This document shows positions 3,217 through 32,642 of a stretch of DNA of 36,689 bases, piece by piece. The notes beneath the pieces were generated by a model. The model had not been told where the DNA came from and made no database searches. It saw only the letters and a program-made list of their open reading frames with translations. A program made the translations under genes and the position numbers. Source of the DNA: Candidatus Olsenella pullicola (GTDB taxonomy: Bacteria; Actinomycetota; Coriobacteriia; Coriobacteriales; Atopobiaceae); contig DXAB01000075.1 in assembly GCA_019117265.1 (NCBI GenBank), forward strand, positions 1-36,689, in the 5' to 3' direction. Within the stretch, counting starts at the first letter, position 1; each line of letters opens with the position of its first letter.

Positions 3217-3371
3217 CTTGCTCCCCTCTTATGGGTACCGGTTGTGACCCCGCACGATTCTCACGGAGCCGTTCTTGGTAGTTATAGGAGGGGAGTTGAC
3301 GCGCTTGCGTAAGCCGTTGCGACACGCTGCGGTAAGCAATCGTAAGCTGGCGGTAAGCAAGCTGAACGCGC

Positions 3372-3438: not shown

Positions 3439-3462
3439 AGGCACCCTTGTCAGGTTCCGGCG

Positions 3463-6486: not shown

Positions 6487-6494
6487 GCACCCGC

Positions 6495-9163: not shown

Positions 9164-9210
9164 GGGAGAATGGAACGGGGTTCAGGCCCCGGAGGAACAA
9201 AGGGGTACAC

Positions 9211-9927: not shown

Positions 9928-9935
9928 GAGCGCGC

Positions 9936-10394
9936 GTGACCACACGCTACGACATCATCTCAGACACGCATGGCTACCTCTCGCCCGAGCTTCTCGCCGA
10001 GCTTGCCGGGGCAGACGTCATCGTGCACGCCGGGGACATCTGCTCCCCGCGAGACTACCTCACGCTACAGGACATCGCGCGCGTACAGATGTGCCTGGGA
10101 AACAACGACTGGTCGTACGACTACGGCCCCATGGTCAAGGACCGCAAGGTCTTCATGGGCAGCGGGCTCAAGTGGCAGGTGACGCACTACCGCAGGCGCC
10201 TCAACCTTGCCATGTGCGACGTTGCCATCTTTGGGCACACCCACACGCCGGTGCTCGAGCGTGACGAGTGGACGGGCGTGCTCGTGATGAACCCGGGCAG
10301 CCCCACCTACCCGCGGCGCTCGCGGCCGTCCATGGGCCGCATCATCGTGGAGGACGAGAAGATCGTCGAGGCGAAGATCATCACGCTGGCGTAG
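9936..10394 (+). CDS. YfcE/MJ0936-type metallophosphoesterase
   Basis: ISDTHGYLSPE, HAGDI, LGNND, FGHTHTPV, NPGSPTYPR motifs; GTG start. Confidence 0.88.
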   Translation: MTTRYDIISDTHGYLSPELLAELAGADVIVHAGDICSPRDYLTLQDIARVQMCLGNNDWSYDYGPMVKDRKVFMGSGLKWQVTHYRRRLNLAMCDVAIFGHTHTPVLERDEWTGVLVMNPGSPTYPRRSRPSMGRIIVEDEKIVEAKIITLA

Positions 10395-11088
10395 CGGGCG
10401 GACGCGGGGCGTCAACGGCAACAAAGAGCGGCGCCACGACACGGGTGTAGAAGATCAGCCACACGAGCGAGACGCAAAAGCCCGCCAGCACGTCCGAGGC
10501 GTAGTGGACGCCCAGGTAGATGCGGCTGATTCCCACCATGGCAATGACGAGCCCAAACACGACGCACCACACCACGCGCATGGCGTCCCTGCGGTGGTAG
10601 CGCCAGACCATCCAGATGAGCAGGCCAAAGAAGGCCATCGCCACCATCGAGTGGCCGGAGGGAAAGCTGTAGCCCGTCTCCGAGATAAGGCGGAACCCGT
10701 CCGGGCGCGGGCGCTGGACGATGGCCTTGAGCACGGTGTTGAGCAGCACCACGCAGACGAGGTTGACGGCGACGCACCAGCCCGGCGCCTTGCCCGGGGC
10801 CAGGGCGGCGATGACCGCGGCGAGCACTGCCAGCACCACCACCGAGGCGAGCGAGGTGAACGCCTCCATGATCGGGGTCACCGCGTCAGAGCGCAGCCGC
10901 TCGACAAAGAACTCGTAGGCCAGGGTGTCCAGGCGCATGATCTCGCCGGACGCCACCTCTCCGAGCAGCCACACAAAGACGAGCGCCGCGGCAAGAAGCA
11001 CGAGCGTCCTGATGTTCTCGCGAGCAAGGACCAGGGCGCCGCGAGAAATCTCACGGGCGCCCCGGGCAAACTCCCCTGTCTTGGACAT
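10381..11088 (-). CDS. PAP2 family phosphatase
   Basis: KAIVQRPRPDG, SFPSGHSMVAMAFFG, GISRIYLGVHYASDVLAG signature motifs; 3' end overlaps the convergent yfcE-like gene by 14 bp. Confidence 0.9.
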   Translation of the reverse strand: MSKTGEFARGAREISRGALVLARENIRTLVLLAAALVFVWLLGEVASGEIMRLDTLAYEFFVERLRSDAVTPIMEAFTSLASVVVLAVLAAVIAALAPGKAPGWCVAVNLVCVVLLNTVLKAIVQRPRPDGFRLISETGYSFPSGHSMVAMAFFGLLIWMVWRYHRRDAMRVVWCVVFGLVIAMVGISRIYLGVHYASDVLAGFCVSLVWLIFYTRVVAPLFVAVDAPRPPATPA

Positions 11089-11090
11089 GA

Positions 11091-11408
11091 TTAGAGGTTG
11101 GCCTCGAGCTCGGCAACGAGGGCGGGCTTGGGCATGTTGCCCACGACGGTGTGGACGGGCTGACCTCCCTTGAAGAGGATGAGCGTGGGGATGGAGACGA
11201 TGCGGAACTGCGTGGCGAGGTCGGGCTCCTCGTCAACGTTGCACTTGTAGACGGTGAGCTTGTCTTCCATCTCCTGAGAGATCTGGTCGATGACGGGCGC
11301 GAGTGCGCGGCACGGGCCGCACCACGACGCCCAGAAGTCAACGAGAACGGGCTTCTCGGAGCTGGAGATGACGGACTCAAAGTCCGCGGTGGTTATTGCC
11401 TTGGCCAT
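11091..11408 (-). CDS. trxA: Thioredoxin
   Basis: FWASWCGPCRALAPVID active site, IPTLILFKGG; 105 aa. Confidence 0.95.
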   Translation of the reverse strand: MAKAITTADFESVISSSEKPVLVDFWASWCGPCRALAPVIDQISQEMEDKLTVYKCNVDEEPDLATQFRIVSIPTLILFKGGQPVHTVVGNMPKPALVAELEANL

Positions 11409-12159: not shown

Positions 12160-12275
12160 TCCCCGCGGGCGCCCTACCCGCGGGTTCGTTCAGCCGTTTT
12201 CCAAATCCCGGTGAAATAGCGGGCATGGAACCCTCTTCTCTGCGTTGGTAGGGTGAGAACGTGAGGGGAGGGGAT

Positions 12276-14210
12276 ATGGACGTTGAGACAGCGCGGCTCG
12301 TCATGTACATCGCAGACCACTCCGGCGCGCGCCCTGACGAGCTGGCAGAGCGCTACGGCGTGAGCTCGCGAACGGTGCGCAACCACGTGCACGCCGCAAA
12401 CCGCGAGCTTGCACCCATTGCTCGCCTTGAGCTGCCACGCGGCGGAGGCTATCAACTCGTAGTCGATGACGAAGCGGCCTTTGGGCGCTGGGTGGAGAGG
12501 CAGCGCGGCCGCGATCGCCAAGCCCTGCCCCAGACGCCCGAGGCTCGCGTGAGCTATCTCCTGAATGACCTTCTCTCGCGCAATGACTACATCACGCTCG
12601 ACGCGCTTGCGGGCATCCTCTTTGTCTCGCGCGCAAGCATCTCTAACGACCTCAAGCAGGTCGAGGCGCGACTGCTGCACTTTGGCCTCACGCTAGAGAA
12701 GCGGCCCCATCACGGGATCCGCGTCATTGGCTCCGAGATGGCACGCCGGCTGTGTCTGGCGAGCCTTGCCATGGACGTGGCAGACGGACCGCTCGCCGCA
12801 GGCACGAGTGGCGTGGATGTTGACGAGCGCCGCGAGCTTCTCGACGTGGTCTCCTCTTGCGTGGAGCGCGTGACCGCCGAGGAGCGCTTCTCGGTGAACT
12901 CGATGGCCTATCGCAACCTCGTCACTCACATCGCCATTGCCATTCTCCGCATGCGGGCGGGTTGCTACGTCCCCATGGAGACCGAGCAGCTCGCCACGAT
13001 CAAGCGCTCGGCGGCATTTCCCATCGCAGGGCGGATAGCGCATGCGATAGGCGCCGCCACGGGCATGAGCCTGCCCGAGGAGGAGGTCGCCTACATCGCC
13101 ATCCACCTCTCAGGTCGTCAGACGCTCGTTGACACCTCCGCCGAGGAGTCGGGCCTCGTGATCAGCGACGAGGCATGGGAGGTTGTCCAAGAGATGGTGG
13201 AGGTCGTTCGCCGGGTCTTCCGCTTCGACTTTCGCGGCGACCTCGAGCTGCTCATGAACCTTGCTCGCCATGTGGTCCCGCTAGCGGTGCGCCTTCGCTA
13301 TCACCTCAAGCTGGAGAACCCCATCCTCGCCGAGGTCAAGAGTCGCTTCTCGCTCGCCTTCTCGATGGCCCTGGAGGCCTCTTCGGTCCTTGCCGAGAAG
13401 TACGGCGCGGTTCCATCTGAAGATGAGGTCGGCTATCTGGCACTTGCCTTCGCACTCGCGCTGGAGCGCCAGAAGACGGAGCTGCCCAAGAAGAACATCC
13501 TCGTTGTCTGCGCGACGGGCGCGGGCAGTGCTCGCCTGCTCGAGTACCGCTACCGCCAGGAGTTTGGCGCCTACGTTGACAAGATCGTGACCTGCGACGC
13601 TGCGCATGTTCGCCATGTTGACTTCACCAACATCGACTACGTTTTCACCACCGTCCCGCTAGCAGAGAAGCTCCCCGTTCCCGTTCGCGAGGTGGGGTAC
13701 TTCCTTGAGCCGGATGAGGTCGAGAGTGTCCGAGCCCTGCTGACCTCGCGCTCCCGCGTTAACGCGCGCTCGCTTTTCAGGCGAGAGCTCTACTTCGACC
13801 ATCTTGCATGCACGACTCGCGAGGAGGCGCTCGAGCGGCTCTGCGCGCGCGTGACCTCTGTCGAGGACGTTGGCCCGGACTTCTACGAGCTCGTTGCGCG
13901 CCGTGAGAGGGTGGCCTCAACGGCATTCGGCAACCGCGTTGCCGTGCCCCACCCCCTCGAGCCCGCGAGCCAGCGCAGTTTCGTTGCCGTTGCCCTGCTC
14001 GACCAACCAGTTCGTTGGGGGCGACAGGACGTTGAGGTGGTGCTGCTCCTCTCGCTCTCTGAGGATGCCGGTGACGTGCCGGAGGGCTTCCAGGAAGCCC
14101 TGGCCGAGCTCGTGCTTTCGGCCGAGGCAGTGGACAGGCTCCTTGCAGACCGCGACTGGGGAACCCTCATGGAGCTGCTCGACTCGCTCCGGGCGGGCAC
14201 GAATCGCTGA
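12276..14210 (+). CDS. PRD-containing PTS-regulated transcriptional regulator (BglG/LicR/MtlR-like: HTH, PRDs, EIIB-like, EIIA-like)
   Basis: N-terminal HTH (ELAERYGVSSRTVRNHV), PRD histidine contexts (YRNLVTHIAIAILRM, VAYIAIHLSGR, LLMNLARHVVPLAVRLRY), EIIB-like NILVVCATGAGSARLL, EIIA-like VAVPHPLEP; RBS GGGGAGGGG before ATG 12276. Confidence 0.88.
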   Translation: MDVETARLVMYIADHSGARPDELAERYGVSSRTVRNHVHAANRELAPIARLELPRGGGYQLVVDDEAAFGRWVERQRGRDRQALPQTPEARVSYLLNDLLSRNDYITLDALAGILFVSRASISNDLKQVEARLLHFGLTLEKRPHHGIRVIGSEMARRLCLASLAMDVADGPLAAGTSGVDVDERRELLDVVSSCVERVTAEERFSVNSMAYRNLVTHIAIAILRMRAGCYVPMETEQLATIKRSAAFPIAGRIAHAIGAATGMSLPEEEVAYIAIHLSGRQTLVDTSAEESGLVISDEAWEVVQEMVEVVRRVFRFDFRGDLELLMNLARHVVPLAVRLRYHLKLENPILAEVKSRFSLAFSMALEASSVLAEKYGAVPSEDEVGYLALAFALALERQKTELPKKNILVVCATGAGSARLLEYRYRQEFGAYVDKIVTCDAAHVRHVDFTNIDYVFTTVPLAEKLPVPVREVGYFLEPDEVESVRALLTSRSRVNARSLFRRELYFDHLACTTREEALERLCARVTSVEDVGPDFYELVARRERVASTAFGNRVAVPHPLEPASQRSFVAVALLDQPVRWGRQDVEVVLLLSLSEDAGDVPEGFQEALAELVLSAEAVDRLLADRDWGTLMELLDSLRAGTNR

Positions 14211-14281
14211 CCCCACGCGCCGCGCTTTTGCGGCACGACTCCAGGACCCCGTACGAACCGCACGTGAAGGGAGGTGCAATC

Positions 14282-14611
14282 ATGGCAGAGAGCACGTTCA
14301 ACGAGGAGAACGAGGAGATTTCGTTCCAGATCATCGCTGCCGCCGGTCAGGCCAGGAGCCTTGCTTACGAGGCGCTGAACCGGGCCAAGGAGGGTGACTT
14401 CGACGCTGCTGACGACCTCATGGAGCAGAGCCGAGCCGCTGCACTCGAGGCGCACCACGTTCAGACCGACCTGCTCACCAAGGAGGCGTCTGGCGACCAC
14501 ACGACCGTGGACGTCCTGCTCGTCCACGCGCAGGACCACCTGATGACCTCGATGCTCGCCCAGGAGCTTATCGGCGAGCTCATCGAGCTTCATCGAAAGG
14601 TCCAGCACTAG
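14282..14611 (+). CDS. PTS lactose/cellobiose-type EIIA
   Basis: IIAAAGQARSLAYEALNRAKEGDFDAADDLMEQ...AHHVQTDLL; VHAQDHLMTS. Confidence 0.92.
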   Translation: MAESTFNEENEEISFQIIAAAGQARSLAYEALNRAKEGDFDAADDLMEQSRAAALEAHHVQTDLLTKEASGDHTTVDVLLVHAQDHLMTSMLAQELIGELIELHRKVQH

Positions 14612-14673
14612 CCGTCGGAAGGGCGGACCCGACCGCCCGACCAGACGGAGAGACAAGCAAAGAGGAGGGAAAC

Positions 14674-14970
14674 ATGAAGGTCCTATTGGTATGCGCGATG
14701 GGGATGTCAACGAGCATCCTCATGAAGAAACTCGAGAAGTACGCTGCCGAGCAGGGCATCGACTTCCAGATCGCCGCGCAGAGCGCCAACAGCTACAAGA
14801 CCGTCTGCCACGAGTACGACTGCATCCTCATGGGCCCGCAGATCTCGTACCAGAAGGATCGTATCGCCCAGGAGTCCGGCATGCCCGTTGCTGTGATTCC
14901 TGCGGCCGACTACGGCGTGGGCAACTGCGCCAACATCTTCAAGCTCATCAACTCGATCGTCGAGGGCTAA
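14674..14970 (+). CDS. PTS lactose/cellobiose-type EIIB
   Basis: MKVLLVCAMGMSTSILMKKL phosphocysteine loop; MGPQISYQ. Confidence 0.92.
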   Translation: MKVLLVCAMGMSTSILMKKLEKYAAEQGIDFQIAAQSANSYKTVCHEYDCILMGPQISYQKDRIAQESGMPVAVIPAADYGVGNCANIFKLINSIVEG

Positions 14971-14978
14971 CCGCCCTT

Positions 14979-15001
14979 CCCGGCGGGAGCCGCCCGCCGG
15001 G
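14979..15001 (+). other. Intercistronic hairpin between EIIB and EIIC genes
   Basis: CCCGGCGGG - agccg - CCCGCCGGG perfect 9-bp stem. Confidence 0.6.
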
Positions 15002-15028
15002 CCTTCGACCCCTCGCTAGGAGAAAACC

Positions 15029-16348
15029 ATGTCCAAGCTCGACAACCTCTACCAGTCGCCGGTGATGGTGAAGCTGCAGGAGTGGGGCGGCAAGCTCCAG
15101 TCCAACCGTGCGCTCGCCGCCATCAGCGGCGGGATGATGGCCGCCATGGCGGTCATCCTCGCCGGCGCGATCTTCACTATCGTCGCCACGCTGCTCAACC
15201 TCGCTGGGGTGCTGCAGACGACCGACGCCGCCTATGTCTGGCTCACCACCCCCTACAACATGACCATGGGCATCCTCGGCGTGGTCGTGGCCTTTGCGGT
15301 GGGCTACATCTACTCCAAGAACCTCGAGATGGAGGGTGCGCTCGCCAACGGCATCGTCACGATGATCCTGTTCCTCATCGTGTGCGCCCCCGTCCAGAGC
15401 GTGACGCTTGAGGACGGCTCCACCATGAGCGTTCTCGCCACGACCTACCTCGGTGGTACCGGTCTGTTCACGGCCCTCATCATCCCGCTCGTCTCAGTAA
15501 AGATCATTGACTTCTGCCAGAAGCATCACGTGAGCCTGCGCATGCCCGACGCCGTGCCACAGTTCCTCGCGGACGCCTTTGCCACCCTCGTGCCGCTCGT
15601 GATCTGCATCCTGCTGTGGCACGGGCTCAACACCCTCGCCCAGATGACCATCGGCGTGGTCCTGCCCGGCGCCATCGCGGGCCTGCTATCCATCCCGCTC
15701 ACGCCCCTCATGTCGCTGCCCGGCATGTTCGTTCTCGCGTTCGTGTGCCAGCTCCTGTGGAGCTTTGGCATCCATGGCACCATGGTTCTCTCGCCCGTCA
15801 TCATGGCCCCGATGATTCAGTTCTATTCCACCAACGCCGAGCTCGTAGCCTCCGGTCAGCCCGCCGTCTTCGCGCCCATCGCCCTCTATGGCGTCATGAG
15901 CTGCTGCGGCGGCTCCGGCAACGTGCTCCCGCTCGCCATCCACTGCATGCGCGCCAAGTCCGAGCAGCTTAAGGCCGTCGGCAAGGCCGGCATCGTGCCC
16001 GCAATCTTCAACATCTCCGAGCCCATGGCCTTTGGCACGCCGATTATCTACAACCCGATCATGGCCATCCCGTTCATCCTGAACCCCATGATCATCATGC
16101 TCTTCGCTTACATCCTCTATGCCGTTGACTTCTTCCAGCCCGGCTACATCCTGATCATGACCCAGCTTCCCGTGATCATGCAGAGCTTCATGCCGTCCCT
16201 TGCGTGGCAGAACCTCTTCGTGGCGCCGCTGGCGTTCGTGATTGCCTACCTGGTGTACCTGCCGTTCGTCAAGGTTTACGATCACCAGCTCTGCGAGAAG
16301 GAGGCCGCCGAGAAGGCCGTCGAGACAGACGCAGCCATCGAGGTCTAG
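15029..16348 (+). CDS. PTS lactose/cellobiose-type EIIC
   Basis: Polytopic membrane protein; LLWSFGIHG, CCGGSGNVLPLAI, FNISEPMAFGTPIIYNP EIIC signature. Confidence 0.93.
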   Translation: MSKLDNLYQSPVMVKLQEWGGKLQSNRALAAISGGMMAAMAVILAGAIFTIVATLLNLAGVLQTTDAAYVWLTTPYNMTMGILGVVVAFAVGYIYSKNLEMEGALANGIVTMILFLIVCAPVQSVTLEDGSTMSVLATTYLGGTGLFTALIIPLVSVKIIDFCQKHHVSLRMPDAVPQFLADAFATLVPLVICILLWHGLNTLAQMTIGVVLPGAIAGLLSIPLTPLMSLPGMFVLAFVCQLLWSFGIHGTMVLSPVIMAPMIQFYSTNAELVASGQPAVFAPIALYGVMSCCGGSGNVLPLAIHCMRAKSEQLKAVGKAGIVPAIFNISEPMAFGTPIIYNPIMAIPFILNPMIIMLFAYILYAVDFFQPGYILIMTQLPVIMQSFMPSLAWQNLFVAPLAFVIAYLVYLPFVKVYDHQLCEKEAAEKAVETDAAIEV

Positions 16349-16361
16349 CTGCAGCTCCCTC

Positions 16362-16392
16362 GGTGCCGTCGGGGCACGCTCCCGACGGCACC
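16362..16392 (+). other. Intercistronic hairpin between EIIC and GH1 genes
   Basis: GGTGCCGTCGGG - gcacgct - CCCGACGGCACC perfect 12-bp stem. Confidence 0.65.
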
Positions 16393-16438
16393 GTCGTTGA
16401 GGTGCGCCCCCCTTCGCCACCACACGCCGCACGTATGA

Positions 16439-17890
<1,452 letters not shown>

Positions 17891-17899
17891 GAGGACCAC

Positions 17900-19006
17900 A
17901 TGCGCGAGACGCGGCTAGGCATCTCAATCTATCCTGAGCGCGCAACGGAAGAGCAATGCGACGGGTACCTGAGGCTCGCGGCGGGGCTCGGCTACCGCGT
18001 GCTGTTCGTGGCGCTGCTCGGCGTGCGCGACGCGCGCGAGGAGGTGGTCGCGCGCTACGCGCGCCTCACGACGCTCGCCCACGAACTGGGCTTTGAGGTG
18101 TGCTGCGACGTCAACCCTGGGGTGCTCGCGCGCTTCGGCGTGAACTGCAGCGTGCTGCGAGGTAAGCTCGACCTGAGGTTTCTACGCGAGATCGGCGCGG
18201 ACGCGATGCGGCTCGACACGGGCCTCTCCGAGCTTGAAGAGGCGTTTCTCACCCGCAACGCCGAGGGGGTCTCGGTGTGCCTCAACGCCGCCACCACTGC
18301 GCATGACCACGTGGGGGCCATGCTCGCCTCCGGAGGCGACCCTGCACACGTGGTGGGCTGCCACAACTACTACCCGCACCGCTACACGGGCCTCTCGCTT
18401 GACTACTTCCTTCGCTGCTCGCGCATCTGGAACGATCACGGGCTTCGGCTTCAGGCCTTTGTGAGCTCGCGGGAGCCAGGCGCGCGTGGCCCATGGCCGG
18501 TAGATGACGGCCTGCCCACGCTCGAGATGCACCGTGACCTGCCCGCTCGCGTGCAGGCGGCTCACCTTGCCCTACTCGGCTGCGTGGATGACGTCATCTT
18601 TGGCAACTGCTTTGCGAGCGAGGAAGAGCTCGCTGCCGTGGCGCGTGCTGTCGCGCACCCCGCTGAGCTCACGGTGCATGTGGAGCCAGGCCTGCCCGAG
18701 TCTGAGCGCGGGCGGCTTCGCATGCGCCTCTCGAGACGACCAGAGGTCTGCGACCACATGATCCGTACCGTGGAGAGCCGCATGGTGCCCGGTGAGGTGG
18801 CGCCATTCAACTGTGTGGACATCAAGCGTGGGGACGTGCTGGTCGACAACGTGGGCTACGGCCACTATTCCGGCGAGGTGCAGATCGCGCTCATGCCGAT
18901 GGAGAACTCAGGACGCACCAACGTGGTGGGATACGTAGACCCCGCCGAGCTCTGCCTGCTCGAGTGCTTGACTCCCGGCCAGCTCTTCTCGCTTCGCCTG
19001 GAGTAG
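17900..19006 (+). CDS. DUF871 / MupG-like protein (putative 6-phospho-N-acetylmuramidase family)
   Basis: LGISIYPERATEEQCDGYL start, CCDVNPGVLARFG, LRLDTGLS, HNYYPHRYTGLS, C-terminal VDIKRGDVLVDNVGYGHYSGEVQI. Confidence 0.82.
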   Translation: MRETRLGISIYPERATEEQCDGYLRLAAGLGYRVLFVALLGVRDAREEVVARYARLTTLAHELGFEVCCDVNPGVLARFGVNCSVLRGKLDLRFLREIGADAMRLDTGLSELEEAFLTRNAEGVSVCLNAATTAHDHVGAMLASGGDPAHVVGCHNYYPHRYTGLSLDYFLRCSRIWNDHGLRLQAFVSSREPGARGPWPVDDGLPTLEMHRDLPARVQAAHLALLGCVDDVIFGNCFASEEELAAVARAVAHPAELTVHVEPGLPESERGRLRMRLSRRPEVCDHMIRTVESRMVPGEVAPFNCVDIKRGDVLVDNVGYGHYSGEVQIALMPMENSGRTNVVGYVDPAELCLLECLTPGQLFSLRLE

Positions 19007-19130: not shown

Positions 19131-20825
19131 ATGTCCACCATGCCTGCACCCATCGACGCCACCACCACCCCTGAGTGGGCCGCCCTCAAGGCCCACCACG
19201 ACGAGCTCGTCCAGAGCGGCTTCCACCTCAAGGACGCCTTCGTGGCCGATCCCGAGCGCGTGGCCAAGCTCTCCTTTGACATGGACGACCTGCACTTTGA
19301 CCTCTCCAAGAACCTCGTGGACGACAAGACCGTGGGCCTTCTCTGCGACCTTGCCCGCATCGTGGGCCTCGAGGAGCGCCGCGACGCCATGTACGCCGGC
19401 GAGCACCTCAACACCACCGAGAACCGCGCCGTCCTGCACACCGCGCTGCGCCGCCCGGCCTCCGATGTCGGCACCGTCTTTGACGGAGAGCAGGACTGCG
19501 TGGCAGACGTCCGCGCCGAGCTCGACCGCATGTACGCCTTTGCCGAGCGCGTGCGCTCCGGCGAGTGGAAGGGCGTCACGGGCAAGCGCATCGAGCACGT
19601 GATGTCCATCGGCATCGGCGGCTCCGACCTCGGCCCCGTCATGGTCTACGAGGCCCTGAAGCCCATGGCCGACGCCGGCATCGACTGCCGCTTCGTCTCC
19701 AACATCGACCCCAACGACATGGCCGAGAAGGTCAAGGGCCTCGACCCCGAGACCACGCTCGTGATCGTGGTCTCCAAGACCTTCACCACGCTCGAGACCC
19801 TCACCAACGCCCGCGAGGCCAAGACCTGGCTGCTCGAGACCCTGCGCGCCCAGGGCGCCATCGACGGCTCGGCCGAGAAGGACGCCGAGGCCATCGAGAA
19901 GCACTTCGTGGCCGTCTCCACCGCGCTCGACCTCGTGGCCGACTTTGGCATTGACCCCGAGAACGCCTTCGGCTTCTGGAACTGGGTCGGCGGCCGCTAC
20001 TCCGTGGACTCCGCCGTGGGCCTCTCGCTGATCATCGCCTTTGGCCCCGAGCGCTTCGAGCAGTTCCTCGCCGGCTTCCACGACCTCGACGAGTACTTCC
20101 AGAAGACCCCGCTCGAGAAGAACGTGGTGGCGCTTCTCGGCCTGCTCAACGTCTGGTACGTCAACTTCTGGGGCGCCGAGAGCCACGCCGTGCTGCCCTA
20201 CAACCAGTACCTGCACCGCTTTGCCGCCTACCTCCAGCAGCTCACGATGGAGTCCAACGGCAAGAGCGTGCGCTGGGACGGCACGCCCGTGACCTCCGCC
20301 ACCGGCGAGATCTTCTGGGGCGAGCCGGGCACCAACGGACAGCACGCCTTCTACCAGCTCATTCACCAGGGCACCCGCATGATCCCCGCGGACTTCATCG
20401 CCTTTGTGAACACGCCCAACCCCACCAAGGACGGCAGCCAGGACGTCCACGAGCTCTTCCTGGGCAACTACCTCGCCCAGACCAAGGCCCTCGCCTTTGG
20501 CAAGACGGCCGACGAGGTCCGCGCCGAGGGCACGGCCGAGTGGATGGTCCCGGCTCGCGTCTTCGAGGGCAACCGTCCCACCACGTCCATCTTTGGCATC
20601 GAGCTCACGCCGCACGCGCTCGGCGAGCTCATCGCGCTCTACGAGCACATCACCTTCGTTGAGGGCACGGTCTGGGGGCTCGACAGCTACGACCAGTGGG
20701 GCGTTGAGCTGGGCAAGCAGCTCGCCAAGCAGATTACGCCCGCCTTCCACGACGACGAGGCCCTGGCCGCCCAGGACGCCTCCACGCAGGCCCTCATCAA
20801 CTACTACCGCGCCCACCGCAAGTAA
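19131..20825 (+). CDS. pgi: Glucose-6-phosphate isomerase
   Basis: [57 protein letters not shown]. Confidence 0.97.
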
Positions 20826-20942: not shown

Positions 20943-21575
20943 TCAGGAAAGCGCGAGAGCGAGGACGTCGGTCAAGCCAGAGAGGTGGACGTCCGCGAGG
21001 GACTGGTCCAGGTGCACGCCCTCGGGCAGCGGCATGGCGCAGACGCGCGCACCGGACCTGTGCGCGGCAAGAATCCCGATGGGCGAGTCCTCAACGACGA
21101 GCGTCTGCCCCGCCTCAACGCCGAGAAGCTCCATCGTGCGCAGGTAGACGTCGGGCGCAGGCTTTGACGCCGCGCACTCCTCCCCGCTCACGGTGACGTC
21201 CAGAAGCCCGCCGATGCCGAGCGCCTCCACAAAGCCGTCTATCACCCAGCGCGGCGAGGCAGACGCCAGGCCGGTCCTCACGCCGGCCTGGCGCAGCCCC
21301 GAGAGAGTCTCCCGTACGCCGGGGGCGGCAAGCTCGGCGTAGGGCATGGGATTGTTGGCAAAGCGCGTCCGGAACTTCTTGTACAGCCGCTCTCGGCGCT
21401 CAACGTCGTGCGGCTCCACGCAACCCCATACGACCTTGTTGTTTGACCCGTAGAAGTCCGGAAAGCCCGAGTCGTCTATGCCCTCCTCGGCAAAGAACGC
21501 GCGGCGACGGCGGTCGAGCTCAGGCTCGGAGTTGACGAGCACGCCGTCCTTGTCGAAGATCACCGCCTCGTACAC
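20943..21575 (-). CDS. HAD-superfamily hydrolase, beta-phosphoglucomutase-like
   Basis: AVIFDKDGVLVNSEPE, GLASASPRWVID, KPAPDVYLRTMELLGVEAGQTLVVEDSPIGILAA. Confidence 0.9.
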   Translation of the reverse strand: MYEAVIFDKDGVLVNSEPELDRRRRAFFAEEGIDDSGFPDFYGSNNKVVWGCVEPHDVERRERLYKKFRTRFANNPMPYAELAAPGVRETLSGLRQAGVRTGLASASPRWVIDGFVEALGIGGLLDVTVSGEECAASKPAPDVYLRTMELLGVEAGQTLVVEDSPIGILAAHRSGARVCAMPLPEGVHLDQSLADVHLSGLTDVLALALS

Positions 21576-21583
21576 GCCCCCAC

Positions 21584-22867
21584 CTACTTTGACTCGAGCT
21601 GCTTGGCGAGCATGATCGAGAGGATGGCCTCGTCGGTCTGGGCAAAGCCCTCGCGCATCAGCTTGCCGGTGTTCTTGATGGTCTCCTCGGCATCGTCAAA
21701 GATGATGCCGTCCTTACCCGTGGGAGAGATGTCCGCGAGCGCGAGCGTGGAGCACTGGATGGCCGAGTTGGTGCCCGCTGCAATCTTGAGCGCGCAGGTG
21801 GCCTTGGCGCCGTCGCAGATCATGCCCTGCAGCGTGGCGAGCATGTTGTTGATCGCGTACTTGATCTCGCGCAGGCCTCCGCCCTGCAGGAAGGTGATGC
21901 CGCAGCACGAGCCCGTTCCCCCGGCGATGCCGGAGCCGCACAGCGGGGACAGGCGGCCCATGTACTCCTTGATGTGCAGGACCACAAGGTCGGAGAGCAC
22001 CAGGGCACGGGCGAGGTCCTCGTCGCCGGAGCCGAGGATGCGCGCGAGCTCGATGATGGGGAGCGAGCTCGCAATACCCTGGTTGCCGCTGCCGCCGCAG
22101 GTCATGACTGAGAGGGGGCAGCCTCCCATGCGCGCGTCGCTCGCGGCGGCGGTGACCGACATCAGGCGCAGCGTGGCGTTGTTGAGAAGCGCCCCGCGGC
22201 GGTCGGCGCCGGCGCCGATGCGCTTACCCACCTCAAGGCCGTACTCGCCGGAGAGACCCTCCTCGCTCACGCGGGTGTTGAGCGGCACGCAATCCAGGAT
22301 GAACTTGATGTCCTCGAAAGGAACAGTCGTAGCAAACTCGTAGATGGCGTCCACGGTGAGGCCCTCGTGGGCGTCGTCCGCGCCGCTCCCAACAGAGACG
22401 GGCTCGTCAACGAGGACCTCTCCGTTCTTCTCCACGCGCACCACGTTGGTGTGGTCGCGCATGATGACGACGCGCGAGCTGTCCGCCCCGTCGGTCAGGA
22501 GCGCCTCGATGTAGAGCGCCTCCGAGGTGGCCTTCTGCTCAACGCGGATCGCATGGGCGTCAACGAGGGCCTTTGCCGCCTCCAGGTGTTCGGGCATAAA
22601 GCCAGAGAGAACCTCGAGCTTCTTATTGGACTGGCGCACCACCGCGCCCAGGGCGGCGGCAATCTCGATGCCCACCATGCCCGTTCCCGGGATGCCCACG
22701 CCGAGCGCGTTCTTGATGATGTTGGCGCTCAGCTTGAGACGGATGTCCGTGGGCGTGCCGTCAAGCTGCTCGGCGGCGATAGAGACGGCGTAGGCAACCG
22801 CGATGGGCTCGGTGCAGCCCTCGGCGGGAACGACCTCCTTCTTGAGGAGCTCGATGAAGTCAACCAT
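21584..22867 (-). CDS. UPF0597 YhaM/CyuA-like protein (L-cysteine desulfidase / serine dehydratase-alpha-like)
   Basis: VPAEGCTEPIAVAYAVS, GVGIPGTGMVGIEIAAALGA, MTCGGSGNQGIASSLPI, LCGSGIAGGTGSCCGITFLQGG, MICDGAK..CALK. ORF trimmed to MVDFIELLKKEV. Confidence 0.88.
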   Translation of the reverse strand: MVDFIELLKKEVVPAEGCTEPIAVAYAVSIAAEQLDGTPTDIRLKLSANIIKNALGVGIPGTGMVGIEIAAALGAVVRQSNKKLEVLSGFMPEHLEAAKALVDAHAIRVEQKATSEALYIEALLTDGADSSRVVIMRDHTNVVRVEKNGEVLVDEPVSVGSGADDAHEGLTVDAIYEFATTVPFEDIKFILDCVPLNTRVSEEGLSGEYGLEVGKRIGAGADRRGALLNNATLRLMSVTAAASDARMGGCPLSVMTCGGSGNQGIASSLPIIELARILGSGDEDLARALVLSDLVVLHIKEYMGRLSPLCGSGIAGGTGSCCGITFLQGGGLREIKYAINNMLATLQGMICDGAKATCALKIAAGTNSAIQCSTLALADISPTGKDGIIFDDAEETIKNTGKLMREGFAQTDEAILSIMLAKQLESK

Positions 22868-22868
22868 G

Positions 22869-24167
22869 CTAGTCCTCCAATGACGCGGCAAGCCCGACGA
22901 TGCCTCGAACCGCCTCGCTGTAGATGTCTGCGGCGCGAGAGACGTCCGTGAGCCGCACGTGCTCGTCGACGCCGTGCGCGCCGCTGTGTGTTCCGGGAAG
23001 CTTGGGGCCAAACGCCACGAGCGCGGGCATGAGGCTCGCATAGGTGCCGCCGGCCATGACCGAACAGCCGCCCCGCTCGCCGCACACGCGCTCATAGGCG
23101 CCGAGAAGAACCTGGACGCAGGGGTCGTCCTCAGCAACGAGGTGGATGGGCTTCTCCTGCGCCACCTCGACCTGCCAGGCCTCGCCAAGCGCCGCGCGAA
23201 CGCGGGAGACCGCCTCGATCGTGCCAAGCGCGGTGCCGCAGCGCACGTCAACCTCTGCCGCAAGGACACCGTCCCGGACGTTCAGGACGCCGAGGTTCAT
23301 GGAGGTATGGCCAAAGACCTCGTCGGGAACGTCGATGCCAAGGGCCGCGCCGGTGAGGTCCGCGCACAGCAGGCGGCAGACCTCGTCCAGGCAGCCTGCC
23401 TCAGGACCCAGCTCCTCTACGAGGCGCGCCACGAGGGCATTGATGGCATTCTCGCCGCGCTCCGGAGTGCTCCCGTGCGCGGAGCGGCCCGTGGCGGAGA
23501 TCTCCCTGCCATCGGGGAGCGTCGCGTGAGCCTCTGAGGGAACCACGTTTGCCGCGGTCCCGCCGCTCAGCGTGAGCCCCGGCAGGTCCGACGTTCGGGA
23601 CAGTCTCAGGTGAAGGCGGGCCTTCTCCCCCCTGACCACGGGAAACGCCGCGTCCGGCACAAACCCCATGCTCGGGAGCTCCTCCCCCGCCTCCACGTAC
23701 TCGCGGAGGTCGGACATGCCGGTCTCCTCGTCCGTGCCAAAGATGATGCGCAGGCGGCACGGCAGGTCCTCGCCCACGTACCCGGCAAGGAGGACCATGA
23801 GAATCGCGGCACCGATCTTGTTGTCCATGCAGCCGCGACCGTAGAGCACGCCGTCCTCAACCTCGGCGGCATATGGGTCGCGAGTCCAGCCGTCTCCCGC
23901 GGGCACAACGTCCAGGTGCACGGGAAACGCGGCGAGCGGTCCGCGTGCGCCAGTCTCGGCCCAGCCGACCTTCTCGCCGAGGCGGCGCGTCTCAAACCCC
24001 AGGCGCTCGCACTCGGCAAGGGCAAAGTCGAGCGCACGGGCGCACCCCTCGCCGTAAGGCGCGCCAGGCGAGGGAGCGGCATGCTCGGTGTTGATGCGCA
24101 CGAGCGCGCGCAGCAGCGAGACGATCCTCTCGTCGCGCTCGGCAACCTCACGGCAAGGGGCGCTCAC
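22869..24167 (-). CDS. M20-family metallopeptidase (PepV-like dipeptidase/deacylase)
   Basis: FPVHLDVVPAGDGWTRDPY, YGRGCMDNKIGAA, FGTDEETGMSD, SAHGSTPERGENA; likely GTG start 2 nt past the upstream stop. Confidence 0.88.
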   Translation of the reverse strand: MSAPCREVAERDERIVSLLRALVRINTEHAAPSPGAPYGEGCARALDFALAECERLGFETRRLGEKVGWAETGARGPLAAFPVHLDVVPAGDGWTRDPYAAEVEDGVLYGRGCMDNKIGAAILMVLLAGYVGEDLPCRLRIIFGTDEETGMSDLREYVEAGEELPSMGFVPDAAFPVVRGEKARLHLRLSRTSDLPGLTLSGGTAANVVPSEAHATLPDGREISATGRSAHGSTPERGENAINALVARLVEELGPEAGCLDEVCRLLCADLTGAALGIDVPDEVFGHTSMNLGVLNVRDGVLAAEVDVRCGTALGTIEAVSRVRAALGEAWQVEVAQEKPIHLVAEDDPCVQVLLGAYERVCGERGGCSVMAGGTYASLMPALVAFGPKLPGTHSGAHGVDEHVRLTDVSRAADIYSEAVRGIVGLAASLED

Positions 24168-24169
24168 GA

Positions 24170-24670
24170 CTACTCGCCGTCCTTCTCGGTCTTGGGGGTA
24201 AAGACGAGGTCGCACGTCTCGTCGCCGGCACCGATCTGGGCGTCAAACTCCAGGTTCACGCCGGCGCTGTCCGCGCGGGCAAAGTCGCTGTAGCAGGCAA
24301 GGCGGCAGAGCTCGGCAACCTGCTCGGCGGGCAGGCCCATGCCCTTCCAGGTGGCGGCAAGCGGGCAGTGGTGGAAGCGGAGCAGGCCGCGCTCGTCGGT
24401 CTTCTCCACGAGCTCCATCTCAAAGACGTCCTGGCCGTTGGAGTTGTAGAGCATCTCGGCCATCTTGCCCGGGTTGCCCTCGCAGACGCCGTACTTGCGG
24501 CCGCGCTCCACGCCAAAGGCGTAGATGGTGGCCTTGCAGAACTCGTCGGGATCGATGCCGTGCTTCTTGGCCTCCTCGAGCATGAGGTGGAACCACTGCG
24601 CGCGGGTCCCGTTGGCGCCACGGACGCCCTCGAGGTACTCCTCGCGCGTGAAGGTCTGCTTGTCGGACAT
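24170..24670 (-). CDS. L-2-amino-thiazoline-4-carboxylic acid (ATC) hydrolase family protein
   Basis: Family-like C-terminal pattern RFHHCPLAATWKGMGLPAEQVAELCRLACYSDF; assignment from pattern recall, not a search. Confidence 0.7.
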   Translation of the reverse strand: MSDKQTFTREEYLEGVRGANGTRAQWFHLMLEEAKKHGIDPDEFCKATIYAFGVERGRKYGVCEGNPGKMAEMLYNSNGQDVFEMELVEKTDERGLLRFHHCPLAATWKGMGLPAEQVAELCRLACYSDFARADSAGVNLEFDAQIGAGDETCDLVFTPKTEKDGE

Positions 24671-24740
24671 GTCTCTCTCCTTTTTCTTGGGGGGCGCGGC
24701 GGCAATCCCCTCGCCGCCGCGCCCCGGCTTACTGTGTTGG

Positions 24741-26339
24741 CTACGCGCTGAGGATGCCGAGGAAGGCGCCCACGAGCGAGACCACGATGAGGATCACCAG
24801 GAGCTTGGTGATGGTCCACTTCTTGTACTTGATGCCCCAGAAGACGAACATCACGGCCGCGAGGGCGAGGATGCCGGGGGCGATGGAGTTCAGGGTGTCC
24901 TGAAGGACGATGGTCTTCTCGCCAAAGGTCCAGGCAAGCGGGGTGGAAACCTTGACCGTGCTGGCGGAGAGGGCGCCCATGACGAACATGCCCACGATGG
25001 AGGCGCAGTCGATGAGCTTGTTGACAATGCCGCCGGCGAGAATCTTCTGGACGGACTCACGACCGAGCTTGTAGCCCAGGCCAAAGAGGGCGCGGGCCTC
25101 GGCAAAGGTGAGGAGGCCGAAGAGGATCACAAAGAAGACGCCGAAGGCGTTGCCCTGGGTGGCGAAGGAGGCGCCAAGGGCAAAGAGGATGACCTGGACG
25201 GTGCCAAAGTCAACCGTGTCGCCAACGCCGGCGAGCGGGCCCATGAGGCCGTTCTTGACACCGGTGATGATCTCCTCGGGGATGTCGGCGCCCATGGCAC
25301 GCTGCTCCTCCATGGCGAGGACGGTGCCGTGGATCAGGCAGCCCCAGTTGGCGTTGGTGTTGAAGAAGCCGAGGTGACGCTTGAGGGCGGCCTCAAGGTC
25401 GGCCTGCTCCGGATAGAGCTTCTTGAGGACGGGCGCAAAGGAGGCGCAGACGGCCACGGACTGCATGCGCTCGAAGGAGTTGGAGATCTCGGCGGTGAAC
25501 TGCCAGCGCAGGAAGACGCCGTTCACGTCCTTCTTGCTGAGCGTGCGCTGCTCGCCGGCGGCCGCGGCCTTCTCGGAGAGCTCGCGCAGGGTGGCAAAGG
25601 AGTCGTCCTCGCCCATGAAGGTGACGAGAAGGGCAAGGCAGATGCCAAAGATGGCGGCGGCCATCGTGGGGATCTGGAGGTACTGGACCAGGAAGAAGCC
25701 GATGATGAACAGCGGCAGGAACTTCATCTTGCCAATCATAAACACGACGGTGGCGAAGCCGAGGGCCGGCAGGAGGCCGCCCATGACGTTGAACGCCGTG
25801 AGGATCCACTGCGGGCAGACGTTGAGCAGCGAGGTCACCAGGTCGGCACCGAAGTAGTTGATGACGAACATCAGCGGGAAGCGCAGGATGAAGCCAAAGA
25901 TGAGCGGGTAGACCGTGGCGCAGCGCCAGACGGCGTTGACGTCGCCCTTGTCGGCGTACTTATCGGCCCAGTGCACAAAGACGGCGTTGCCGGTGCGGCG
26001 GACGTTGTTGACGAGGACGCCAAGAACGCCGAGGGGCACGGCGATGGAGACGGCGGTCTCCGGTGTGCAGCCCGTCTGGATGGCGATGGGAACGGCGATG
26101 AGGGCCGCGAAGACGCGGTCGGACGGAATGTTGCCACCGGCGGCGACCATGCCGAGATACACCATCTCGATGCTGCCGCCCGTGACGACGCCCGTCTCGA
26201 GGTTGCCGGTGAGCGCGCCAAGGACGGTGCCCACGAGCAGCGGCGACTTCATGGTCTGGATGAACGAGTAGCCCGCGAGGCCGGCCGCCCACCAGAACCA
26301 CAGGCCGCCAACTATGGCAAAGAACAGGTTGAGACCCAT
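24741..26339 (-). CDS. Mannose/fructose/sorbose-family PTS, fused EIIC-EIID
   Basis: N-terminal EIIC-like (GALTGNLETGVVTGGSIEMVYLGMVAAGGNIPSD) followed by EIID-like (FLRWQFTAEISNSFERMQSVAVCASFAPVLKKLY, HLGFFNTNANWGCLIHGTVLAMEEQRA, KNGLMGPLAGVGDTVDFGT) in one 532-aa ORF. Confidence 0.92.
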   Translation of the reverse strand: MGLNLFFAIVGGLWFWWAAGLAGYSFIQTMKSPLLVGTVLGALTGNLETGVVTGGSIEMVYLGMVAAGGNIPSDRVFAALIAVPIAIQTGCTPETAVSIAVPLGVLGVLVNNVRRTGNAVFVHWADKYADKGDVNAVWRCATVYPLIFGFILRFPLMFVINYFGADLVTSLLNVCPQWILTAFNVMGGLLPALGFATVVFMIGKMKFLPLFIIGFFLVQYLQIPTMAAAIFGICLALLVTFMGEDDSFATLRELSEKAAAAGEQRTLSKKDVNGVFLRWQFTAEISNSFERMQSVAVCASFAPVLKKLYPEQADLEAALKRHLGFFNTNANWGCLIHGTVLAMEEQRAMGADIPEEIITGVKNGLMGPLAGVGDTVDFGTVQVILFALGASFATQGNAFGVFFVILFGLLTFAEARALFGLGYKLGRESVQKILAGGIVNKLIDCASIVGMFVMGALSASTVKVSTPLAWTFGEKTIVLQDTLNSIAPGILALAAVMFVFWGIKYKKWTITKLLVILIVVSLVGAFLGILSA

Positions 26340-26351
26340 GACGTTTCTCCT

Positions 26352-26843
26352 TTACGACTCGTACTTCCTCATGGCCTCCTCGTAGGAGATGCCTGCCTCC
26401 TCGGGGACGACCTGAATCTCGATGTTCACGCCTGCGTCATGAAGGGCGCGAACGTCCTCAGCCTCAGACGGACCGAAGGCGACCGCAGGGAAGACAACCT
26501 TGCGACCGGCCTCGGCGGGGATACCGCCGAGCTGAAGCGTCTCGAACGCGAGGCCCGCCTCGTGCGAGGCGCGCGCCGTGTGAACATCCTTGAACAGCAG
26601 GAAGATGTTGCCCGTGCCGAGCGTGCCGGCCTGATATGCGGCAGCGGCGTCGGCGGCGGTCTTGATGTCGACGTTCACGCCGGAGGGCGCGGCCATCTTG
26701 TAGATGCTCGCCATGAACTCGTCCTGACCGAGCATGTCGTCAACGATGATGATCTCGTTGGCGGAGGCGATCTTGGACCACTTGGTGATCACCTGGCCGT
26801 GGATAAGCCTGTAGTCAACGCGGGCCCACGTAATCTTTGCCAT
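26352..26843 (-). CDS. Mannose/fructose/sorbose-family PTS EIIB
   Basis: MAKITWARVDYRLIHGQVITKWSK (phospho-His), IIIVDDML; ORF trimmed to ATG preceded by GGAGAGG. Confidence 0.93.
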   Translation of the reverse strand: MAKITWARVDYRLIHGQVITKWSKIASANEIIIVDDMLGQDEFMASIYKMAAPSGVNVDIKTAADAAAAYQAGTLGTGNIFLLFKDVHTARASHEAGLAFETLQLGGIPAEAGRKVVFPAVAFGPSEAEDVRALHDAGVNIEIQVVPEEAGISYEEAMRKYES

Positions 26844-26909
26844 TTCCTCTCCTTTTCCTGTCGTGCCTTGTCTGATACCCAACAGACCGGGCGCACCCGG
26901 TCGCAACCC

Positions 26910-27317
26910 CTATGCCTGGGCGAGAAGCTCGTTGATGTGGCGAATGCCCTCGTGCGAGGTCTCGATGCAGCGCTTTGCGAGCGCCTCGGGGTCAAGCCCC
27001 TCGTCGCGGCTGTTGATCGCCTCGATGAGCATGGGAAGGTTCGCGCCCGAAACGAGGTGGTAGTTGCGTGCGGTGCGCAGGCCCATGCTCGCGACGTTGC
27101 AGGGCGACCCACCAAAGAGGTCGCAGAGCACGAGCACGCCGTCGCCGGTGTCAACCTCCTCGAGCGCCGCGGCAAACTCGGAGCTGAGCTCGTCGACGTT
27201 TCCCTCGCGCCTGAGCGCGAGCGTCTTCACCTGCTGAGCGGGCCCCATGATGACCTCGCTGGCGCTCACGAGCCCCTCCGCAAGGCCGCCATGAGTCATG
27301 ACGACGATTCCGACCAT
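26910..27317 (-). CDS. Mannose-family PTS EIIA
   Basis: MVGIVVMTHGGLAEGLVSASEVIMG (phospho-His), VLVLCDLFGGSPCNVAS. Confidence 0.93.
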   Translation of the reverse strand: MVGIVVMTHGGLAEGLVSASEVIMGPAQQVKTLALRREGNVDELSSEFAAALEEVDTGDGVLVLCDLFGGSPCNVASMGLRTARNYHLVSGANLPMLIEAINSRDEGLDPEALAKRCIETSHEGIRHINELLAQA

Positions 27318-27620
27318 TCATCCTCCTTACTTTTGATTACTTTTGAACGTCACAATTTCTTCAAAACTGCGCCTAGTGCGCGCTTTGGGTTGCATGGCAC
27401 TCTACCTAAGCCTCGACAGGCCATCTTTTGGCAGGGGTGAGCGGCATTTTTTCGCTTGTTGTCGAATTTCTCGCTGATTTGTCGTCAGATAGGGTGATAA
27501 TTAGATATTAAAGAAGGCAATTTTGCTCTATTTCACGTGTTTTTCGCTCTCTGTTTTGCAAAATGAATTTGCTCTATTTTGGTCAGTTATTTTTGTTAAT
27601 CAGAATAGAGGTACTTTATT

Positions 27621-28904
27621 ATGAAAATGGACAAGCAGGACCAGGGATATCTGCGCCCTCACGGCTACCGAATGAGGCTCGTTGACGGAAAGCTCCGCCA
27701 TCTCCTCAAAAGCCACACAATCGTGCGCCTTGTTGGCCCCCACGGTGCGGGAAAGAGCTGGACCGCGCTCGCCCAGGCCCGAAGCGTTATTGCCGCAGAC
27801 GACGAGGGCATCCGCCCCATCATCGAGACCAACCCGGATCGCGCGCTGCAGGGCGGTCTGTCTCCGCACGTTATCGACGAGTGGCAGCTCATCCCCTCCC
27901 TCGCCAAGTCGGCGGCGCAGTCTCGCGACGGGTCGTTCCTTCTCGTGAGCTCAGTTGATGGCCGGCCCGAGGAGGAGCGCCATGTTGCGAGCACCCCGAT
28001 CGTCCGGCTCTGGCCCCTCTCGCTTGCCGAGGCCGGCCTTTCCAACGTGAGCGTCTCCCTTATGGGGCTCTTCACCCACAACTTCTATCCGATGTCGTGT
28101 CCAATGGGCCTCCCCGAGGTTGCCGAGGCAATCTGTCAGGGCGGGTGGCCCCGCCTTCAGGGTCTGGGGGCGGATGCCTCCGCGCGACTCATCCGAGTTC
28201 TGCTGCAGACCGTCATGGAGAACGAGCTGCCAAAGCGGGGCAAGCGGATCCCCATGGCGGTAAAGGTCGCCTGCGCGCACGCCGCCTGCGATTGGCAGGC
28301 AACCTACGAGGACTATGCGGCATATGCCCGCGACCGCGGCGAGAAGCCCTTCTCGAGAAACACCGCGCGTGATTACCGGCAGCTCTTCCTTGATACGTAT
28401 CTTGCCTATGCCGTTGAGGGATGGCGGGCGCCCATTCGCTCCACCTCACGCGTGAGGTTCAAGCCGCGAATGCAGTTCGTAGACCCATCCATCCCCGCCA
28501 TGTGGCTCACGCACACGCCGGACACGCTGCTCCAAGACGCTCCCGCGCTCCTCTCGCTTCTGCGCTGCCTCGTTCTGCGCGACCTCAACGTCTACGCGTC
28601 CGTGCTCGAGATGGAGGCCGCGCCCACGGTGAGATACTACGCGGACTCCGACGGGGCTCGCGCCGATGCCGTGATCACCCTGTCGGACGGCAGGTGGGGA
28701 GCAATCAACGTTGCGATTGGCGAGACTCAGTTTGATGAGGCGGCCCGCGGGCTCACGCGCCTGAGAAGCAAGCTCCGCAAGAACCCTGCCGCCGACTGCC
28801 CCGACCCCACGTTCCTCGCCGTCATCATGGGCAGTTGTGCGCGACCTCGGCTCGACAAGAAGACGGGCGTGTACGCCTTCCCCGTCGGCGCGCTCACGAT
28901 GTGA
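27621..28904 (+). CDS. DUF4143/AAA_14-type ATP-binding protein
   Basis: Walker A VRLVGPHGAGKSWTA; HVIDEWQLIPSLAK; C-terminal DUF4143-like layout (FLDTYLAYAVEGW, FVDPSIPAMWL, LLRCLVLRDLNVYA). Confidence 0.8.
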   Translation: MKMDKQDQGYLRPHGYRMRLVDGKLRHLLKSHTIVRLVGPHGAGKSWTALAQARSVIAADDEGIRPIIETNPDRALQGGLSPHVIDEWQLIPSLAKSAAQSRDGSFLLVSSVDGRPEEERHVASTPIVRLWPLSLAEAGLSNVSVSLMGLFTHNFYPMSCPMGLPEVAEAICQGGWPRLQGLGADASARLIRVLLQTVMENELPKRGKRIPMAVKVACAHAACDWQATYEDYAAYARDRGEKPFSRNTARDYRQLFLDTYLAYAVEGWRAPIRSTSRVRFKPRMQFVDPSIPAMWLTHTPDTLLQDAPALLSLLRCLVLRDLNVYASVLEMEAAPTVRYYADSDGARADAVITLSDGRWGAINVAIGETQFDEAARGLTRLRSKLRKNPAADCPDPTFLAVIMGSCARPRLDKKTGVYAFPVGALTM

Positions 28905-31670: not shown

Positions 31671-32642
31671 ATGAGGGGAGATGCGACACCTCACGTGCGC
31701 GGCAGGTTTGCGCCAACGCCCTCGGGTCGCATGCACCTGGGAAACGCGTTCTCCGCGCTCATGGCATGGCTCTCCTCGCGCTCGGCGGGCGGGGAGATGG
31801 TGATGCGGGTCGAGGACCTTGACCCGCGAGCCCAGAGCCGCGAGCGCGCCGAGCTGCTTATGCACGACCTTGAGTGGCTGGGACTCACCTGGGACGAGGG
31901 GCCGTACTACCAGAGCGAGCGCGCCGAGCTCTACGGCGCAGCGCTCGAGGAGCTCTCCGCGCGCGGGCTCACCTACCCCTGCTTCTGCTCGCGCGCCGAG
32001 CTCCATGCGGCAACCGCGCCGCACGCCTCCGACGGCGCGCCCATCTACCCCGGCACATGCCGGAAGCTCTCCGCGGATGAGGTTGCCCGCCGCAGTGCGA
32101 CGCGCCCGCCGGCCGTGCGCCTGCGGGTTCCGGACGAGGGCGACCCCGCAGGCACCATCGAGTTCTCCGACCTGGCCTTTGGCGCTCGGCGCGAGGTGCT
32201 CGCGCGCGAGTGCGGGGACTTTCTCGTGCGGCGCAGCGACGGCGTTGTGGCCTACCAGCTTGCCGTGGTGGTAGACGATGCCCTCATGGGCATAAACCAG
32301 GTGGTGCGCGGGTGCGACCTTCTCGGCTCGTGCGCGCGGCAGATCTACCTGGGGCGCCTTCTTGGGTACGAGACGCCCGCCTACGGACACGTTCCCCTGC
32401 TCGTGGCCCCGGACGGCAGGCGTCTCTCAAAGCGCGAGAAGGACCTCGACCTCGGAGCGCTTCGCGAGCGCGGCGCGCGCCCCGAGCGCATTGTGGGAGC
32501 ACTCGCGGCGGCGGCCGGTCTGTGCGACCCAGGAACGGACATAACGCCCAACGAGCTGGTGGCGCTCTTCGCCTGGGATAAGATCGCCGCGCATCGGGAC
32601 AGCATCGTCGTTGACGATGCGTTTCTTGCTCGGCTCGTCTGA
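31671..32642 (+). CDS. gluQ: Glutamyl-Q tRNA(Asp) synthetase (GluQRS)
   Basis: RFAPTPSGRMHLGNAFSALMAWLSSR, VMRVEDLDPRAQ, zinc-binding CFCSRAELHA...YPGTCR, RLSKREKD; about 320 aa, without the GluRS anticodon-binding half. Confidence 0.88.
   Translation: MRGDATPHVRGRFAPTPSGRMHLGNAFSALMAWLSSRSAGGEMVMRVEDLDPRAQSRERAELLMHDLEWLGLTWDEGPYYQSERAELYGAALEELSARGLTYPCFCSRAELHAATAPHASDGAPIYPGTCRKLSADEVARRSATRPPAVRLRVPDEGDPAGTIEFSDLAFGARREVLARECGDFLVRRSDGVVAYQLAVVVDDALMGINQVVRGCDLLGSCARQIYLGRLLGYETPAYGHVPLLVAPDGRRLSKREKDLDLGALRERGARPERIVGALAAAAGLCDPGTDITPNELVALFAWDKIAAHRDSIVVDDAFLARLV

Follow-up and report, generated by a model that had tools for sequence, protein, structure and literature searches.

In the present study, we analysed a 36,689-nucleotide (nt) stretch of DNA from Candidatus Olsenella pullicola (contig DXAB01000075.1), hereafter called the window, in which seven minus-strand genes at 20943-27317 join a mannose-family phosphotransferase system (PTS) to enzymes of cysteine metabolism. 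We take this operon, known from two unrelated groups, to be a catabolic module that spreads horizontally among gut anaerobes; its gene order, protein families, catalytic residues, co-transfer, and dedicated CyuA paralogue can all be read from sequence. The best reading of the module, which we hold tentatively, is the uptake and splitting of a putative sugar-cysteine or sugar-Cys-peptide adduct followed by the fermentation of cysteine. No published function for the operon was found in the open-access literature.

Conserved linkage and horizontal transfer of the operon

The seven genes were confirmed as EIIA, EIIB, a fused EIICD, an ATC-hydrolase-like gene (ATC, L-2-amino-thiazoline-4-carboxylate), an M20 peptidase, a CyuA-type gene, and an HAD gene. 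The open reading frames (ORFs) agreed with the order, coordinates, and intergenic gaps (66, 12, 70, 2, 1, and 8 nt in gene order) given in the original prediction, and the start of EIIB was refined to the ATG at 26843. The predicted family assignments all passed profile tests, including PF14196 for the ATC-hydrolase-like protein (49.9 bits against a cut-off of 28.1). Ratios of nonsynonymous to synonymous substitution rates (dN/dS) of 0.04-0.22 among four related loci place EIICD, ATC-hydrolase, M20, CyuA, and HAD under purifying selection.

Regarding the transporter, membership in the mannose family was evident from all four profiles, each of which was matched above its cut-off. EIIA (26910-27317, 135 aa; PF03610, 92.6 bits) carries the phospho-acceptor His9 and has orthologues in all operon loci, EIIB (26352-26843, 163 aa; PF03830, 148.7 bits) has His15 within an RLIHGQV motif, and the membrane permease (24741-26339, 532 aa) combines EII-Sor (PF03609, 226.9 bits) and EIID-AGA (PF03613, 301.7 bits) in one ORF that is a relative of the E. 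coli ManZ/ManY structures. HPr is encoded in the same genome.

Relatives of the ATC-hydrolase-like protein within PF14196 occurred in 25 of the 301 genomes of the order, and the type that is 80-100% identical to it was present in only six, all Atopobiaceae; inspection of the wider sequence revealed all seven genes in each of these six. Of 27 genomes, 6 contained CyuA, EIICD, and ATC-hydrolase of the operon type together, and 21 contained none of the three. The original prediction had named a lack of conserved linkage in relatives as one observation that would speak against it, and the cluster was found in every sampled genome of the family with this type of ATC-hydrolase. A scan of a genome collection, which relied on two exact 7-residue patterns that rarer variants may escape, added Clostridium paraputrificum and three Clostridioides records, while a class-wide search added one further genome (G604). 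A plasmid search for this type of operon returned only distant PF14196 relatives, with 25-32% identity among the matches listed.

The clostridial genes follow the order LevR-type activator, EIIA, EIIB, EIIA', EIIB', EIIC, EIID, ATC-hydrolase, M20, CyuA, and RidA, in which EIIC and EIID are two separate genes with 66-69% identity to the fused EIICD. The order PTS, ATC-hydrolase, M20, and CyuA is common to Atopobiaceae and C. paraputrificum, the ATC-hydrolases of which are 60% identical and the EIIC/EIID proteins 67-69% identical, and this conservation in two phyla rules out a chance neighbourhood of PTS and cysteine genes. In the Clostridioides loci, ATC-hydrolase and M20 are intact, with dN/dS mostly below 0.27. 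Between positions 1774-11200 of the C. paraputrificum locus (L038) and the Clostridioides loci (L037, L039, L040, and L053), a block of 9.2-9.8 kb that extends from a gene for a PHP-domain protein into cyuA is 93.7-95.6% identical at the nucleotide level, whereas the rpoB region is only 75-80% identical between C. paraputrificum and Clostridioides; therefore, the block was transferred horizontally, recently, and as one unit.

The original interpretation was supported in part. The union of PTS and cysteine enzymes was borne out as one conserved and co-transferred unit, with a linkage much stronger than the original prediction could have known, but the HAD gene lies outside its core and Clostridioides can spare the operon CyuA. 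The HAD-superfamily protein (20943-21575, 210 aa, GTG start; HAD_2, 85 bits) has the DxD motif, and the HxpB and beta-phosphoglucomutase-like models are closest to it, with HxpB scoring 94.5 bits, below the model cut-off of 191. This accessory gene is the most loosely attached of the seven, lying approximately 90 nt (L030) and 390 nt (L031) from CyuA in two other loci, and it is missing from the clostridial versions, with which a PHP-domain putative phosphoesterase (1774-2604 of L038, minus strand) travels in its stead, divergently upstream. The two proteins are unrelated candidate phosphatases on the same core, and might conceivably serve sugar-phosphate overflow.

The Clostridioides loci also resemble a system that has already been described. 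CD0284-CD0289 of Clostridioides difficile form a SigL-dependent PTS with the LevR-type activator CD0283 (PMC7438776; subunit order in PMC6311696), and L037, L039, L040, and L053 share the A-B-A-B-C-D order and LevR-type activator of CD0283-CD0289, with EIID immediately followed by ATC-hydrolase and M20. The published -24/-12 promoter of CD0284-CD0289, TTGGCACGGCAATTGCTTA, differs by 1-3 bases from sequences that closely precede the first EIIA of these four loci and L038. Matched by published gene order and promoter, the Clostridioides set of ATC-hydrolase, M20, and decayed cyuA stands behind what looks like the SigL-dependent CD0284-CD0289. In the texts searched, the latter was published only as a mannose/fructose/sorbose PTS with no named substrate, and the enzyme genes and the cyuA remnant were not discussed. 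The clostridial activator resembles the NCBIfam model DagR, at 548 bits far below the cut-off of 1400.

Enzymes of the cysteine branch

The CyuA-type protein (21584-22867, 427 aa; SDH_alpha PF03313, 202 bits) was assigned to the [4Fe-4S] L-cysteine desulfidases, and in the PDB, only the CyuA structures of Methanococcus maripaludis matched it at E <= 0.001 (E 3e-31). In the M. maripaludis enzyme (MmCyuA), Cys23 and Glu25 are important for catalysis, Cys287, Cys329, and Cys336 for the cluster, and Arg223 and Asn239 for the substrate (PMC12647591, to which the numbering of the PDB chain stands at +2). C18, E20, C310, C351, C358, R246, and N262 of the operon protein align with all of these residues. 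Since the Cys23/Glu25 pair, which is absent from the serine dehydratases SdaA/B, is retained along with every published catalytic and cluster residue, the predicted assignment to the CyuA-type desulfidases is a strong one.

The operon copy is a second, dedicated paralogue. Every genome of the Atopobiaceae genus that was searched has a separate CyuA with approximately 35-42% identity to the operon copy, which occurred in these genomes only together with the operon. It is 60% identical to CyuA of C. paraputrificum but only approximately 40% identical to the other CyuA of its own organism, and a tree groups the operon CyuAs of Atopobiaceae and C. paraputrificum with moderate support (85/86). In C. 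paraputrificum, the operon CyuA is the sole CyuA in the genome, whereas the operon cyuA of Clostridioides has decayed to fragments and a full CyuA is located elsewhere in each of the four genomes searched. The loss of this gene where another CyuA exists and its retention where it is the sole copy fit free L-cysteine as the product of the module; read most simply, L-cysteine leaves the module in free form, and any CyuA can process it. In C. paraputrificum (L038), RidA follows CyuA, which is consistent with a step that produces aminoacrylate.

The M20 metallopeptidase (22869-24167, 432 aa, GTG start; Peptidase_M20, 85.6 bits) had been expected to cleave dipeptides or N-acyl amino acids, and the profile search narrowed this to dipeptidases of the PepV/Sapep subfamily: the protein scored 276 bits on the Sapep dipeptidase model TIGR01887 (cut-off, 208), which was also exceeded in L031, and the C. 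paraputrificum orthologue scored 337 bits. The metal-ligand motifs align with Staphylococcus aureus Sapep, the structural relatives are 3khx and 1lfw, and the metal ligands and catalytic Glu are present (H84, D115, E147/E148, D172, and H398). A function as an AtcC-type N-carbamoyl-cysteine amidohydrolase was also considered and found no support, as the 25 best of the 41 NCBIfam matches included no carbamoylase model.

Regarding the ATC-hydrolase-like protein (24170-24670, 166 aa), all 24 aligned members matched PF14196, and R23, W26, F83-E84-M85, C102, W108, C122, D129, and C153 were invariant across the aligned family. Because a sequence search for relatives of solved structure returned none, a fold search was applied. 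The AlphaFold2 model, with a pLDDT of 93.4, was matched by Foldseek to TRAPPC3/Bet3 and the V4R sensor domains of PoxR/MopR/DmpR. The relationship between V4R, HNOB, and ATC-hydrolase and the three cysteines have already been noted, and ATC hydrolase has been reported to break the thiazoline ring at a C-S bond (PMC5847659). With the predicted V4R/Bet3 fold, a family of hydrolases would join domains that sense ligands or act in trafficking. PF14196 is broad and has members outside PTS operons, and these proteins are likely to differ in substrate.

Proposed pathway and competing explanations

Four elements of the pathway that we favour are inferred: what the PTS carries, which reaction the ATC-hydrolase-like protein performs, in which order the steps run, and any role of the HAD or PHP protein as a phosphatase. 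The mannose-family PTS would import and phosphorylate the sugar moiety of a molecule to which cysteine or a dipeptide with cysteine is attached. The most plausible candidate is a 2-(polyhydroxyalkyl)-thiazolidine-4-carboxylate that an aldose would form with Cys or Cys-Gly. The V4R-fold ATC-hydrolase-like enzyme would open the sulfur ring or the C-S bond to give a sugar phosphate and Cys-X, from which the Sapep-type dipeptidase would liberate L-cysteine. The dedicated CyuA would then convert L-cysteine to pyruvate, ammonia, and H2S, and RidA would clear the enamine/imine intermediate in C. paraputrificum. Sugar-cysteine substrates are chemically real because cysteine was shown to conjugate to sugar phosphates as a thioether and to react reversibly with carbonyls to hemithioacetals or thiazolidines; these findings were made in mammalian cells and do not concern intact hexoses (PMC13121033).

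The operon is a variant of the mannose-family PTS catabolic operons. The gfr (fructoselysine/glucoselysine) and dga (D-glucosaminate) systems likewise couple a mannose-family PTS to enzymes for a nitrogen-containing sugar derivative. The present operon lacks DgaE/DgaF and a SIS-domain deglycase of the GfrE/F type, with no SIS domain detected in its proteins by a Pfam profile search, and has enzymes for a sulfur amino acid in their stead. E. coli cyuPA (PMC9040844) similarly employs a CyuA-type desulfidase for anaerobic cysteine fermentation, but imports free cysteine through CyuP and has no PTS, ATC-hydrolase, or dipeptidase. In the Pseudomonas pathway from L-ATC to L-cysteine, an M20-type amidohydrolase and the breakdown of cysteine also come after a PF14196 enzyme, whereas the present operon has a PepV/Sapep-type M20, a PTS, and an iron-sulfur desulfidase.

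Several points weigh against a sugar-cysteine substrate. We know of no PTS for thiazolidines. The operon cyuA was lost in Clostridioides; the match to PF14196 is distant, and this PTS does not accompany other PF14196 members of the same taxonomic order; and no riboswitch or T-box was detected in the operon leader that would tie its expression to cysteine. In addition, the nearest sister PTS (45-46% identity, L070/L071) is accompanied by a class II aldolase and two dehydrogenases, and the PTS substrate could possibly be a plain sugar or alditol.

Because of this sister PTS, an explanation in which the transporter takes an ordinary sugar, amino sugar, or alditol while ATC-hydrolase-like, M20, and CyuA form a separate cassette for scavenging cysteine peptides under a shared promoter stays alive, and we regard it as unlikely but worth serious consideration. 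The retention of the PTS in Clostridioides where the operon cyuA was dropped and the strong hairpin between the PTS and enzyme genes are also in its favour. On the other hand, two phyla have kept the two halves linked with an unchanged gene order, the halves were transferred jointly, and the unit has no sugar-phosphate enzyme except for HAD or PHP, which would usually be needed unless the product were glucose-6-phosphate or fructose-6-phosphate.

It is considerably less probable that the ATC-hydrolase-like protein is not an enzyme but a V4R-type ligand-binding protein that senses or carries the product of the PTS. Its predicted fold resembles TRAPPC3/Bet3 and phenol-sensor domains and the Atopobiaceae operon has no obvious separate regulator gene; however, a characterised member of the family cuts the thiazoline C-S bond, neither a DNA-binding nor a signalling domain is present in the protein itself, and the clostridial operon already possesses a LevR-type activator. 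A change in the substrate of the operon CyuA, which would then act by beta-elimination directly on a thioether of cysteine and an S-linked sugar while the ATC-hydrolase-like protein served as an accessory, appears to be more improbable still: this CyuA groups apart from the housekeeping CyuA and such thioethers exist (PMC13121033), but all MmCyuA catalytic residues are retained, E. coli CyuA is reported to be specific for L-cysteine (PMC9040844) and its cluster is modelled to bind the free thiol, and Clostridioides does without the operon copy. The least probable explanation is a Pseudomonas-type route from L-ATC through N-carbamoyl-cysteine (PMC10821248) to cysteine and pyruvate with an unrelated PTS, which shares the logic of an ATC hydrolase, an M20-type amidohydrolase, and a cysteine-degrading enzyme, but is opposed by the PepV/Sapep scores of M20 (276-279 bits), the lack of a carbamoylase model among its 25 best matches, and the chemistry of L-ATC, which offers a PTS no hydroxyl group to phosphorylate.

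If the pathway of sugar-cysteine uptake and cleavage is correct, the orphan SigL-controlled PTS of Clostridioides gains a concrete catabolic hypothesis, and sugar import would be linked to cysteine fermentation and the release of H2S in gut Actinomycetota and clostridia, with substrates of a class recently found in mammalian cells. Toxin synthesis in C. difficile is controlled by cysteine (PMC5767170), and given this control, a cysteine-releasing sugar operon in this organism would matter. It is rather doubtful, while conceivable, that this PTS is the first to serve adducts of sugar and cysteine (thiazolidines or thioethers) specifically, through which gut anaerobes including Clostridioides would harvest Maillard- or glutathione-derived sugar-Cys(-Gly) in the form of a sugar phosphate and fermentable cysteine, with a V4R-fold C-S hydrolase as the splitter.

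Control elements and neighbouring genes

Upstream of EIIA, the intergenic control region (27318-27620) contains, on the minus strand, CTCTATT and repeated AAATAGAG boxes that are conserved in six genomes and are likely to be operator sites of some regulator. It is bordered by a divergent gene for a DUF4143 ATPase (27621-28904). In contrast to clostridia, no sigma-54 promoter was found near the operon start in the window.

The gap between EIICD and ATC-hydrolase is filled by an intercistronic hairpin with a GC-rich 15-bp stem (24677-24734, minus strand; -39 kcal/mol, z -5.3), behind which no T run is present. Comparably strong hairpins of differing sequence occupy the same position in L028, L029, L030, L031, and L032, and with the window included, all six loci folded have one. 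Matches to gyrA-RNA and mir-1538 were below the gathering score and represent the hairpin itself. The hairpin probably affects mRNA stability or stoichiometry, and may set differing levels of the transporter and enzymes. Synonymous divergence is lower in EIICD than in M20, CyuA, and HAD, as in strongly expressed genes.

A separate carbohydrate cluster on the plus strand (12261-19006) comprises a PRD/EIIA2 regulator, a cellobiose/lactose-type EIIC, a GH1 enzyme, and a MupG-like 6-phospho-N-acetylmuramidase, and may serve to import a sugar of the phosphorylated muropeptide or beta-glucoside type; it is followed by pgi (19131-20825). Elsewhere in the window are a QueT-type transporter gene (5770-6486) and, beside a GNAT acetyltransferase gene, a gene for a GluQ-RS-like truncated glutamyl-tRNA synthetase (31671-32642).

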